This document shows, piece by piece, positions 3,936 to 9,258 of a stretch of DNA of 32,686 bases. How positions within the stretch are numbered: position 1 is the stretch's first letter; every line of letters starts with the position of its first letter. A model generated the notes under the pieces. It was not told where the DNA came from. It made no database searches and saw only the letters and a list, made by a program, of their open reading frames with translations. The translations under genes and the position numbers were made by a program. Origin of the DNA: Ectothiorhodospiraceae bacterium (lineage in GTDB: Bacteria > Pseudomonadota > Gammaproteobacteria > Nitrococcales > Aquisalimonadaceae); the NCBI GenBank assembly GCA_007125985.1, contig SLCE01000192.1, positions 1 through 32,686 of the forward strand. The letters run 5' to 3'.

Positions 3936-5616
3936 GCTCCGGCCTTTCCTACAGCTTTTGGGTATGCGCCGTTACTGGCTGCTGGGCGGCGCCGCGCTGA
4001 TGCTGCTCACCGCCGCCGCTAACCTGGGGCTGCTGGCGCTCAGCGGCTGGTTCATCACCGCCACGGCGCTGGCGGGCCTGGCCCTGGCGGCGGGGGCTGG
4101 CATGCAGCTGGACATTTACACCCCCGGAGCGGGCATCCGGCTGTTCGCCGTGGGCCGCGCCGTCACCCGCTACCTGGAGCGGCTGGTCAACCACGAAGCG
4201 GTATTCCGCATCCTTGCTGATCTGCGCGTATGGCTGTTCCGCAAGCTGCTGCCATTGGACACCGGCACCCTGGCGGGGCTGCGCAATGGCGAGTTGCTGA
4301 ACCGTCTCACCACCGATATCGACACCCTGGATCACCTCTACCTACGGGTACTCGGCCCGGTGGCCGTCGCGGCACTGGGACTCCTGGGCGGGCTGCTTTT
4401 CCTGGGCTGGCTGGCGCCGTCCATGGCGCTGGCAATGGGGCTGGTGCTGCTCCCCGCAGCCCTGCTTGCGAGCTGGCTCACTGGCCATCAGGCGTCCGCC
4501 GCCGCCGCCAGGCTGGGCGAACTGGACAGCCGTATGCGCGAGCACCTGGTCGGTGATCTCCAGGCCCAGGCAGAACTGCATGTCTTCGGCGCGGCCCGCC
4601 GCCGGCAGGAGAGTCTGCTGGCGCTGGACACGCAGCGCCTGAGCGCCCGCCAGCGACTTGCCGGCATCCAGGCACTGAGTCAGGGAATTCTCATCGCCGG
4701 CATGCTTGCCGCCCTCTGGCTGGCGCTGCAGAACGGAATCGGTGCGGTGCAGCAGGAGGCGATCACGGGGCCGGTCATGGTGGCTGCGCTGCTGGCCGTG
4801 TTCGCGTTGGGTGAATTGCTTATGCCGCTCACCCAGGCTTTCCTTCTGCTGGGCCGGGTGCGCTGGTCCGCACGCCGCCTCACGGAACTCGCTGCCACGC
4901 CGGCCGCGATTCAGCCCCCTGCCCGACCAGCCCCGGCTCCAGCGGAGCACGCGTTGAATTTCAGTCACGTCGGTTTCCGCCATCGCCCGGACCAGCCTGC
5001 CTGCCTCTCCGGGCTGGATCTGAGTTTGCGTCCAGGTGAACGTGTCGCGATTCTTGGCCCCAGCGGCAGCGGCAAAAGCACCCTGCTGCGCCTGGCCCTG
5101 CGTGAAGCGGACCCGGAACAAGGCATGGTTACCCTGGGCGGTGTGGACCTGCGCGAACTCTCCCCGCAGAGTATTCATTCCCGCATCAGCTGGCTGGGAC
5201 AACGCACGACACTGTTCGCCGGCACCCTCGCCATGAATCTGCGGCTGGGCACGCCCGAGGCAACCGACGCGGACCTGTGGCGGGTACTGGATGCCGTTGC
5301 CCTGGCAGATGCAGTGGCCGCTCTCCCCCAAGGCCTGGACACTTGGCTTGGGGAGGGAGGAAGCGGCCTGTCCGGAGGGCAGTCACGGCGGGTGGCCCTG
5401 GCACGCACCCTGTTGAAACCCGCGCCCGTCGTCCTGCTGGATGAGCCTACGGAGGGACTGGACCGCGCCACTGAGAAAGCTGTCCTGCAGGGTATCGAGC
5501 CCTGGCTGCAGCACCGCAGCGTGCTCATCATCGCCCACGACCCGTGGCGCCTGCCCCGGATGGACCGCTGCTTCACACTCACAGCCGGCCGTCTGCAGGA
5601 AACCGCCTGCGCCTGA
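3919..5616 (+). CDS. cydC: thiol reductant ABC exporter subunit CydC
   Basis: ABC exporter with [12 protein letters not shown] and [16 protein letters not shown]; overlaps cydD end. Confidence 0.88.
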
Positions 5617-5640
5617 CACCCTCGGCGTTTCACGCTAGTA

Positions 5641-5660
5641 TACTGTACATACAAACAGTA
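5641..5660. promoter_or_regulatory. LexA/SOS box
   Basis: TACTGTACATACAAACAGTA = TACTG-N10-CAGTA (CTGT-N8-ACAG), 13 nt upstream of the next ATG and overlapping a TATACT -10-like hexamer. Confidence 0.8.
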
Positions 5661-5673
5661 AACCGAGTGCGTC

Positions 5674-6735
5674 ATGACCATGCGGAAAGGGCGCGGCGCC
5701 GTCAACAACATGCCGGGCCGCTTTGAACAACGGGTGACGGAAGCCGTGGATGACGGCTGGCCGCAGGCGGACGAAACACCGTCGCTCCAGACCCGGGCCG
5801 AAGCCGAACAGGCCCGACGCATCATCAGTCGCAACCGCTCGCCGGATGTGCCATTCGACCGTTCCATCAACCCGTATCGGGGCTGTGAACATGGCTGCAT
5901 CTACTGCTTTGCCCGGCCGACGCATAGCTATTTGAACCTCTCCCCCGGCCTGGATTTCGAAACGCGCCTTTACTATAAAGCCAACGCGGCGGAAGCACTG
6001 GAACGGGAATTGCGGCAAGCGGCCTACCGCTGTGCTCCGATCGTGCTGGGCACCAACACCGACCCCTACCAACCTCTCGACCGTCGCCTGGGCATCACCC
6101 GCCAGCTATTACGCGTACTGCTGGAATTCCGTCACCCGGTGAGCATCATCACCAAAGGCCATCACCTGGACCGGGATCTGGATCTGCTCAAGGCACTGGC
6201 ATCAGACAACCTGGTTTCCGTCTGTGTCAGCCTCACCAGCCTGGATCCCGCATTGAAGCGCCGACTGGAACCGCGAGCCACAGGGCCGGCCAGACGTCTG
6301 GAACTGATCCGGCTGCTACACGAGGCAGGCGTTCCGGTCACCGTGCTGATCGCCCCGGTGATTCCGGTACTGACCGATCCGGAACTGGAGCGCCTGGTCG
6401 CCGCGGCGGCGCATGCAGGCGCGGACGCCGCCGGCTATGTACTGCTCCGTCTTCCCCATGAGGTCGCGCCGCTGTTCCGCGATTGGCTGGCAACGCATTA
6501 TCCGGGCCAGGCTGGGCGGGTCATGGCACAGCTTCAGGGTGCCCGCGGCGGGAAGGATTACGACAGCCGCTTTGGGCATCGCATGCGCGGTGGCGGCCCA
6601 TTTGCCGACCTGATCCAACAGCGCTTCCGCGTTGCCTGCCGTCGTCACGGTCTGCAGACACGCGATCTTCGCGGGCTGGATACCAGCCGCTTCCGCCCTC
6701 CGCCAGCGCCCGGCGATCAACTTGCGCTCTGGTAA
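5674..6735 (+). CDS. PA0069-family radical SAM protein (SplB-like)
   Basis: INPYRGCEHGCIYCFARPTHSYL with CX3CX2C cluster motif; DYDSRFGHRMRGGGPFADL C-terminal motif typical of the PA0069 family. Confidence 0.88.
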   Translation: MTMRKGRGAVNNMPGRFEQRVTEAVDDGWPQADETPSLQTRAEAEQARRIISRNRSPDVPFDRSINPYRGCEHGCIYCFARPTHSYLNLSPGLDFETRLYYKANAAEALERELRQAAYRCAPIVLGTNTDPYQPLDRRLGITRQLLRVLLEFRHPVSIITKGHHLDRDLDLLKALASDNLVSVCVSLTSLDPALKRRLEPRATGPARRLELIRLLHEAGVPVTVLIAPVIPVLTDPELERLVAAAAHAGADAAGYVLLRLPHEVAPLFRDWLATHYPGQAGRVMAQLQGARGGKDYDSRFGHRMRGGGPFADLIQQRFRVACRRHGLQTRDLRGLDTSRFRPPPAPGDQLALW

Positions 6736-6797
6736 GCCGGGATAACGCTCGGTATCCTCTCGAATGGCTTTCGATCAGTGCCGATACGGACGCGATA

Positions 6798-7541
6798 ATG
6801 GTGGATACCCGGAAAATCGAGACAGTCGCCGACCTGTTGGCCCGCTCCCAGCGCACCCTGTTCATCACCGGTGCCGGCATTTCCGTGGCCTCAGGGCTCC
6901 CGACCTACCGCGGCAGCACCGGGGTGTACCAGGGCGGGGTCAATCAGGAAGGGCTACCCTATGAACTGGTGCTTTCCGGTGACATGCTGCGCAGCCGGCC
7001 CGAGGTCACCTGGCGGGAACTCATGCGTATGGCGGAGAAACGGGTGACCAATGCGGCGGTCAACCCGGGGCATGAGGCCATCGCCGCGGTGCCCAACGCA
7101 GTCGTGCTTACGCAGAACGTGGACGGCCTGCACCGCAAGGCGGGCAGCGAGAACGTGATCGAGATTCACGGGAACCTGGGCAAACTGCTGTGTACCGAGT
7201 GCACCTATGAGCGGGAAGCGGATGGGTGGAAACACCTCACCATCCCGCCGCGCTGCCCGGCCTGTGCCGGAGTGCTGCGGCCGGGCGTGGTGTTGTTCGG
7301 CGAAGCCCTGCCCCAGGAGGCCCTGGACCGGCTCGACGCGGAACTGAACCAGGGCTTCGACCTTGTGTTCAGTATCGGGACCAGCAGCCTGTTCCCGTAC
7401 ATTGTGGAGCCCGTCATCCTGGCAGCGGAAGCCGGCATACCCACCGTGGAGATCAACCCCGAGGAAACCGAGATCTCCCATGTGGTGGAGTATCGTCTCG
7501 CCGGCAACGCCGCCGAGGTGCTGCCGGCGCTGCTACGCTAG
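6798..7541 (+). CDS. NAD-dependent protein deacylase, Sir2 family
   Basis: GAGISVASGLPTYRG, TQNVDGLHRKAG, IEIHGNL, zinc CTEC...CPAC, GTSSLFPY. Confidence 0.93.
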   Translation: MVDTRKIETVADLLARSQRTLFITGAGISVASGLPTYRGSTGVYQGGVNQEGLPYELVLSGDMLRSRPEVTWRELMRMAEKRVTNAAVNPGHEAIAAVPNAVVLTQNVDGLHRKAGSENVIEIHGNLGKLLCTECTYEREADGWKHLTIPPRCPACAGVLRPGVVLFGEALPQEALDRLDAELNQGFDLVFSIGTSSLFPYIVEPVILAAEAGIPTVEINPEETEISHVVEYRLAGNAAEVLPALLR

Positions 7542-7627: not shown

Positions 7628-8395
7628 ATGCCCTACGTCGACGTCGCGGGAAACAACATGCATTACACGGTCATGGACCAGGATGCCGACTGGAACCTGG
7701 TCTGCATTCACGGCGCAGCCGGAGACACGCGCATCTGGCCCGCGTCGTTGGGAGAAATCCGCAGCTGCAACACCTACTGCATCGACTTGCCAGGGCACGG
7801 CCGTTCCGATGGGGAGGTCTCCAGCACCATCCCGGATTACGCCGCGGCAGTCCGCGGCTTTGTTGAGGCACTGGGCCTGAAGAACGTGGTTCTGGCAGGC
7901 CACTCCATGGGCGGCGCCATTGCCCAGCAACTGGCGGCGGATGGGGTCGAGTGGCTGAAGGGCATGATCCTGGTGGCCACCGGCGCCCGCCTGCGCGCCG
8001 CGCCGGAATTCATGGACATCAGTGACGAGCAGTTGCCCGATGTCATCGAGAAGATGGCGGCCGCCATGTTCGGGCCGAATACACCGGCCGCCGTGATCGA
8101 AGACGAAAAGGCGCGGATCGCTGCGCAGGCGCCCAAGGTGCTGGCCAGTGACTTCACCGCCTGCAACGGCTTCGACCTGACCGATCAGCTGCATCGCATG
8201 GATGTGCCAGTGCTGATCATCAGTGGCGACATCGACCACATGACACCGCTCAAGTTCTCCCAGTTCCTGGAGGACAAGCTGCCCAACGCCGAACTGGCGG
8301 TGATCGCGCCCGCTGGTCACATGCTGCCGCTGGAGCAGCCGGCTGAACTCTCCCGGCTGATCCGGGAATTCATGGACGCGCGCGCCCGGCAATGA
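7628..8395 (+). CDS. alpha/beta hydrolase
   Basis: VCIHGAAGD, nucleophile elbow AGHSMGGA, catalytic PAGHMLPLEQP; RBS ggagaaatgagg. Confidence 0.9.
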   Translation: MPYVDVAGNNMHYTVMDQDADWNLVCIHGAAGDTRIWPASLGEIRSCNTYCIDLPGHGRSDGEVSSTIPDYAAAVRGFVEALGLKNVVLAGHSMGGAIAQQLAADGVEWLKGMILVATGARLRAAPEFMDISDEQLPDVIEKMAAAMFGPNTPAAVIEDEKARIAAQAPKVLASDFTACNGFDLTDQLHRMDVPVLIISGDIDHMTPLKFSQFLEDKLPNAELAVIAPAGHMLPLEQPAELSRLIREFMDARARQ

Positions 8396-9258
8396 GCCGC
8401 TGGCACCTGGGCACAACCGGCTTCAGTCACGGCGACTGGCAGCGCAGCTTCTATCCGTCCCGGATCCGCGCCGCCGGCCGTCTGGGCTGGTATGCCACCC
8501 AGTTCAATGCGGTGGAACTGGAATCCACCGCGCGGGCCCTGCCCACGGCGGACCAGGTGCGCTACTGGCTGAATGCGGTTCCGGCGGGATTCCGTTTCTC
8601 CGCAGTTGCACCACAGAGCATCACCCGCAGTCCCGGGCGGCTGGACTCCGCACCACGGCTGCGGCAATTGGAACGCCTGGCGGAAAGTCTGGCACCACTG
8701 GGCGGCAAGCTCGGGGCTATCCTCATCCGTCTGGGGCCTGACATCCGCCATCAGCGGTTCGGCGAACTCCAGGGGCTCCTGGCCACCGCTGCCGCCACCG
8801 GCCGCCGGTTTGCACTGGAAATCGCTCATCCCAGCTGGTGGCAGGCCGAGACCGCGGAACTGTTGGCGGAGCACAATGTGGCCTGGGCCTACGTGGATGC
8901 CGCCGATCACAGCATCGCGGGCCTGCCGGGTGACCGGCTCCCCCAGGGGGCGTACCGGCCGCGCCTGCCGCCGCGCACGGCTGACTTCCTCTATGTGCGC
9001 TGGTTGGGCCAACCCCGCCAGTTCGGCGATCTGGGGCGGGAACACCTGAATCCGGATCCTCGGCTCACCTGGTGGTTGCAGCTACTGCACCGGGAGTTGG
9101 AATCACGGCCCGCCCCCGCCGGTGTATTCGGCTTCTTCAGCAATGATTACGCGGGGCATGCGCCGGCAACCTGCAGGCGCTTCCGCCAGTTGCTGCGTGG
9201 CGAGCCGGTTCGGGAAGTGCCGCTGGCCCAGGGTTCGCTGTTCCAGGACACGCCCTGA
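8392..9258 (+). CDS. DUF72 domain-containing protein
   Basis: LGTTGFSHGDWQRSFYPSRI N-terminus and YVRWLG/FFSNDYAGHAPATCRRFRQLL typical of DUF72; ATGA overlap with upstream gene. Confidence 0.88.
   Translation: MSRWHLGTTGFSHGDWQRSFYPSRIRAAGRLGWYATQFNAVELESTARALPTADQVRYWLNAVPAGFRFSAVAPQSITRSPGRLDSAPRLRQLERLAESLAPLGGKLGAILIRLGPDIRHQRFGELQGLLATAAATGRRFALEIAHPSWWQAETAELLAEHNVAWAYVDAADHSIAGLPGDRLPQGAYRPRLPPRTADFLYVRWLGQPRQFGDLGREHLNPDPRLTWWLQLLHRELESRPAPAGVFGFFSNDYAGHAPATCRRFRQLLRGEPVREVPLAQGSLFQDTP

Follow-up and report, generated by a model that had tools for sequence, protein, structure and literature searches.

Genes named splB, after the gene of spore photoproduct lyase (SPL), recur in the SOS regulons of non-sporulating bacteria. 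SOS control has been described for splB-like radical S-adenosylmethionine (SAM) genes of alpha- and beta-Proteobacteria (PMC3323433), for splB (COG1533) of Bacteroidetes (PMC8565304) and for a radical SAM gene of the Streptomyces LexA regulon (PMC9380542); in the accessible parts of these papers the gene is treated as a photoproduct lyase or a repair radical SAM protein, with no mention of a clamp motif. Here a SplB-like radical SAM gene, likewise placed under a LexA-type site, is analysed in a contig of an Ectothiorhodospiraceae bacterium (SLCE01000192.1, assembly GCA_007125985.1), the whole 32,686 nucleotides (nt) of which are termed the window. The encoded protein belongs to the PA0069 family (NF033668, a hypothetical equivalog with no assigned reaction) and is likely to be a radical SAM repair enzyme that LexA represses, that the clamp recruits and that acts beside the ImuABC mutasome. 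The SOS part of this reading mainly confirms what was known and carries it into further lineages, since SOS control of splB genes has already been published; what is new is the reading of the protein tail as a clamp motif and a phylum-wide promoter survey. PMC3323433 reports that the SOS trait of splB was not seen in the gamma-Proteobacteria that it covered, whereas it is plain here in Pseudomonas, Microbulbifer, Marinobacterium and the present genome. The features on which the argument rests are the following.

5613..5644, + strand: predicted sigma-70-like promoter from a consensus scan, CTGACA (5613-5618), spacer of 17, TAGTAT (5636-5641).
5639-5644, + strand: alternative -10 element TATACT, from the consensus scan.
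5641..5660, + strand: LexA (SOS) box TACTGTACATACAAACAGTA, an exact TACTGT-N8-ACAGTA (12 fixed bases), conserved in orthologues.
5674..6735, + strand: PA0069-family radical SAM protein of 353 amino acids (NF033668, 481 bits against a cut-off of 360; PF04055).
5884..5907, + strand: codons of the CX3CX2C [4Fe-4S]/SAM motif, C71-E-H-G-C75-I-Y-C78, from sequence alignments.
6718..6732, + strand: putative beta-clamp-binding motif Q349-L-A-L-W353, from the family tails and column entropy.

The NF033668 (rSAM_PA0069) match covers the full length of the product, which shares the CX3CX2C motif and a QxxL[FW] tail with its family and displays no notable difference from it. Cys-71, Cys-75 and Cys-78 are invariant in family alignments of 22 and of 55 sequences.

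The 20-mer TACTGTACATACAAACAGTA lies 13 nt ahead of the ATG, as the first-pass annotation of this DNA had proposed, and its match to the SOS consensus is exact; TACTGT-N8-ACAGTA did not arise in any of 100 windows shuffled by dinucleotides. The shorter core CTGT-N8-ACAG is present in 35 of the 100 shuffles and is alone not significant. The span given in that annotation, 5641-5674, is correct at its start and too long at its end: the box stops at 5660, and the ATG begins at 5674. The overlap with a TATACT -10-like hexamer was likewise confirmed at 5639-5644, and the CTGACA-17-TAGTAT promoter is better spaced, with 9 of 12 consensus positions and two such predictions in the region compared with 0.3 in shuffles. 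The left end of the box overlaps the right end of this promoter as well as TATACT, so that the box would sit where a repressor operator is expected, over the predicted -10 region. The upstream cydDC operon was rejected as the source of transcription: the promoter bearing the box follows cydC and is taken as separate for that reason, although some read-through may occur.

The first-pass annotation had assigned the gene to the DNA damage response, had pointed to a possible listing of PA0069 in the P. aeruginosa LexA regulon and had named orthologous promoters lacking the box as evidence that would tell against this; for the most part the gene withstood that check. In the taxonomic family of the window all ten orthologues keep the site with 0-1 core mismatch, in most cases immediately ahead of the start, and CTGT-N8-ACAG is present in 27 of 27 named records of Pseudomonas/Stutzerimonas, Burkholderia-type bacteria, Microbulbifer, Marinobacterium and Marinomonas. 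Across the class, exact CTGT-N8-ACAG boxes were found in 14/90 sampled orthologues (0.3 expected from shuffles), at a nearly constant position relative to the cluster motif. In the sample of 50 genomes from elsewhere in the phylum this sequence has no exact copy, and 46 of them have GTTC-N7-GTTC in exact form, which is the LexA motif of alphaproteobacteria (0.6 expected). Similarly, the named alphaproteobacteria display GTTC-N7-GTTC in 24/24 cases and CTGT-N8-ACAG in none, while the actinobacterial Rv2578c genes (n=4) carry GAAC-N4-GTTC, exact in two and with one mismatch in the other two. The LexA site is thus kept while the recognised sequence shifts between lineages, which argues that the gene is under selection for LexA control. 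Within the order, no site was found in four genomes of one other family and two of another. On these promoters, membership of the gene in the SOS regulon appears well supported. The box is patchy in the other Gammaproteobacteria, many families of which lack it. One orthologue promoter (L025, genome G015) displays TACTGTATAAATACAGTA, which has CTG-N8-CAG spacing and is two bases shorter than the normal LexA box.

The source assembly (3.24 Mb in 248 contigs, 98.9% complete) encodes LexA (237 bits) and contains only two exact 12-base matches, one at the PA0069-family gene and the other 10 nt before dnaE2, which encodes an error-prone polymerase. A box with one mismatch lies 7 nt before the ATG of lexA, which heads a lexA-imuA-imuB cluster (C238:37300-43500, L298). 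The three clear LexA sites of the assembly therefore serve lexA-imuA-imuB, dnaE2 and the PA0069-family gene. Allowing up to two mismatches in the 12-base motif gave 20 sites compared with 62 for the reversed control, and plain CTGT-N8-ACAG gave 24 compared with 18, mostly with GC-rich spacers unlike those of LexA boxes. Because such relaxed patterns do not rise above background, only sites with 0-1 mismatch were used and a whole-genome regulon listing with looser patterns was dropped. The recA gene failed as a positive control because it is absent from the assembly, in which no recA scored above the cut-off and only RecA-like fragments were found, one of them ImuA; the gap probably belongs to the assembly. 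The three sites, given the background of looser sites and the absence of recA, do not constitute a complete regulon. In the lexA-imuA-imuB cluster, ImuA has a QLPLPL close to the C-terminus that agrees with the hexameric clamp motif.

The C-terminus of the family was surveyed in 158 complete proteins, with 848 neighbouring open reading frames (ORFs) and shuffled tails as controls, and consists of a variable linker followed by an end of the Q-L-x-L-F type. QxxL[FLW] is present in the tails of 144/158 family proteins, compared with 7/848 neighbouring ORFs and 7.75 in shuffled tails, and the narrower QLxL[FLW] is found in 95/158, compared with 0/848 and 0.85. The motif forms the last five residues in 126 of the 158 proteins, QLSLF being the commonest form (25), and the remaining 14 tails are conservative near variants, some of them hexameric (QLSLDL, QLNLEL). 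Under the strict definition of a clamp motif (Q, aliphatic, x, L/M, F/L, or its hexamer; PMC11139829), 123/158 family tails qualify, compared with none of the 848 controls. The tail matches the clamp motifs of B. subtilis PolC, which ends in QLSLF, and of Hda, QLSLPL (PMC12309361), and also that of mycobacterial ImuB, which needs QLPLWG (PMC10421592); clamp binding by ImuB, PolC and Hda has been measured or shown genetically, whereas the tail of the PA0069 family is known from sequence. The family tail is thus a predicted beta-sliding-clamp-binding motif. In the window protein, QLALW fits the motif at positions 1, 2 and 4, and position 5 is Trp, as in ImuB. Literature searches on the PA0069 family turned up no reference to a clamp motif, and no radical SAM enzyme stands among the beta-clamp partners of a 2024 clamp review.

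The tail is shared by the actinobacterial Rv2578c family (NF038135), which is about 40% identical to the PA0069 family and has the same NPYRGC motif, a QxxL[FL] tail (QLTLL, QLRLL, QESLF and QEPLF in the four proteins compared) and an actinobacterial LexA-type box. It differs in forming its own NCBI family, in the intein of some members and in a score below the PA0069 cut-off. Archaeal SplB-like proteins, which adjoin NreB and for which repair of other cross-links has been raised as a possibility, are also linked to sliding-clamp-binding repair factors and pose the same substrate puzzle (PMC4929162). In the archaeal system the neighbouring Nre protein carries the possible PCNA motif, while in the PA0069 family it is the enzyme that carries the predicted bacterial clamp motif. 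Another protein of the window, a DUF72 (PF01904) product encoded at 8392-9258, has a tail, ..PLAQGSLFQDTP, that also contains a clamp-motif-like QGSLF, and DUF72 may, on this resemblance, be another clamp partner.

The sequences themselves show the box, the way in which it follows the LexA motif of each lineage, the motif tail of the family and the lack of the SPL cysteine; from these we infer repression and induction, clamp binding, and DNA as the substrate. LexA bound at 5641-5660 would cover the start-site side of the promoter and repress it, and DNA damage, through RecA-stimulated cleavage of LexA, would open the promoter. The product, a radical SAM enzyme whose fold belongs to the wider SplB group, would dock on the beta sliding clamp (DnaN) through its C-terminal QLxLF-type tail. 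Docking would carry it to replicating or gapped DNA, and there it would use a 5'-deoxyadenosyl radical to reverse or process a covalent base lesion. It would work beside the co-regulated ImuA-ImuB-DnaE2 mutasome, at the forks or gaps where ImuABC acts. The combination of a LexA site with a clamp-type tag points to what is probably an emergency DNA-repair enzyme on replicating DNA. The chances are about even that the PA0069 and Rv2578c families together form a widespread class of clamp-tethered, LexA-induced, non-SPL radical SAM DNA-repair enzymes, which would dock on DnaN at stalled forks with ImuABC and process the lesion without the catalytic cysteine of SPL. A clamp-docking tail would turn the vague label of repair photolyase into a specific model in which the place of action is replicating DNA, the partners are named (ImuABC, and RNase HII in alphaproteobacteria) and the residue to mutate is indicated; it is the part that merits follow-up.

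Several points weigh against this model. About 70 of the 90 sampled gammaproteobacterial genomes lack a consensus box, as do five of five named Xanthomonad-type records. The association of PA0069 with ImuA in 276 genomes of the class (both in 53, one only in 40 + 38, neither in 145; odds ratio 5.1) speaks for the model, and a good PA0069 box goes mainly with ImuA, which is present in 15/17 genomes with such a box compared with 33/70 without one (p = 0.002), but these statistics ignore phylogeny and genome size. The tag QLALW of the window protein is, by its letters, a weaker variant of the clamp motif: an E. coli Pol III peptide bound less well with Trp at position 5 (PMC11139829), although the QLPLWG of ImuB works in mycobacteria (PMC10421592). 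The tail might also pack on the protein core instead.

Four alternatives were considered. A radical SAM enzyme that modifies RNA or protein in the SOS response, such as tRNA, rRNA or a clamp-bound protein, and takes no part in DNA repair, is unlikely but has some points in its favour: radical SAM chemistry is versatile, the fold neighbours of the structural model include methyltransferases and maturases of ribosomally synthesized and post-translationally modified peptides, and the gene adjoins rnhB, encoding an enzyme that acts on RNA in DNA, in alphaproteobacteria. The nearest fold to the AlphaFold model (predicted local distance difference test score, pLDDT, 84) is, in contrast, that of a DNA-acting enzyme, SPL.

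It is rather improbable that the protein does not bind the clamp and that its C-terminal QxxLF serves a structural role or arose by coincidence. Residues 331-350 are modelled with moderate confidence (block means ~80-85), so that some packing of this segment is possible, and the Trp at position 5 of the window protein would also suit this explanation. Against it, the tails that end exactly in the motif display an entropy of 0.24 bit at Q and 0.32 bit at L, compared with ~3-3.6 bits at most linker positions. The motif stands at the extreme end of the protein, as in PolC, it has the hexameric variants mentioned above and it is common to actinobacterial relatives of only ~40% identity, all of which favours the clamp-binding assignment of the tail.

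An SOS-regulated SPL orthologue, repairing 5-thyminyl-5,6-dihydrothymine in DNA as SplB does in spores, is quite improbable. The resemblance to SplB (TIGR04070; PDB 4fhc-4fhg) comprises a common radical SAM fold, the CX3CX2C motif and a Tyr in the cluster loop; SPL is the closest solved fold, its entries 4fhg and 4fhc being the best solved-structure matches of the model (expect value, E, ~1e-8; template modelling score, TM, ~0.5; 13-16% identity). Tyr-77, equivalent to SPL Tyr-97, is invariant in the family alignment, and the SOS papers name COG1533 genes splB (PMC3323433, PMC8565304). SPL, however, requires a fourth conserved cysteine (Cys-141 in B. subtilis) and Tyr-99 of a radical-transfer chain (PMC3742179). 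No fourth invariant Cys was found in the 55-sequence alignment beyond the three cluster cysteines, an absence that does not depend on residue correspondence with SPL. The position matching Cys-141 through a shared TD motif holds T, A, V, S, I or G in 158/158 proteins and never Cys; this correspondence rests on the spacing of the TD motif, hhalign having aligned the second half only. The Tyr-99 position is Phe in 116/158, including the window protein (Phe-79), and Tyr in 42/158. In addition, the SPL family models TIGR04070 and TIGR03886 did not match the window protein at E up to 0.001 and the family profile did not retrieve SPL among solved sequences. Unlike SplB, the PA0069 family has the additional clamp-type tail, which was not found in the SPL-type relatives (TIGR03886, TIGR04070) or in the mobile-pair protein B, together with predicted LexA control, and the spore photoproduct has been described as a lesion of spores. 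At most, the PA0069-family protein could work as a radical SAM repair enzyme of the SPL type, and it should not be filed as SPL; the suggestion of a non-photolyase repair enzyme in the first-pass annotation would fit the missing catalytic cysteine.

That TACTGTACATACAAACAGTA resembles a LexA site by chance or as a relic, and that the gene escapes SOS regulation in this organism, is highly implausible, for although many gammaproteobacterial orthologues have no consensus box, the 12-base match is exact, the ten same-family orthologues keep a site with 0-1 mismatch, mostly close before the start, and the architecture is that of lexA and dnaE2 in this genome.

The gene order in the window is cydDC, the PA0069-family gene and a SIR2 deacylase.

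6798..7541, + strand: SIR2-family deacylase (PF02146), co-directional, 62 nt (6736-6797) after the radical SAM gene.

A scan found no + strand terminator-like site between the two genes, and their adjacency is repeated in five genomes of a sister genus. Since this closely spaced co-directional pair recurs, sir2 is a possible, uncertain second gene of the SOS transcript and the sirtuin may be SOS co-induced. No operon partner conserved across gammaproteobacteria was found, sir2 occurring in the sister genus only and rnhB in alphaproteobacteria only. Among alphaproteobacterial loci with an exact alpha box, rnhB (RNase HII) follows PA0069 co-directionally in 41/58, compared with 0/100 of the remaining loci, and the PA0069-rnhB loci (e.g. 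L264, L227) may form a repair cluster with RNase HII under LexA control. Some of them also contain a ccrM-like methyltransferase after PA0069-rnhB. The largest neighbour cluster (57 loci, antisense) was set aside, as it looks like shadow ORFs. Residues 1-35 of the window protein form a conserved segment of low confidence (disordered), KGRGAxxNxxxRF, with a conserved Arg. PA0069-like ORFs, either provirus flanks or viral cargo, also occur in viral contigs (IMG/VR, L272-L275), with most of the close matches near contig ends.
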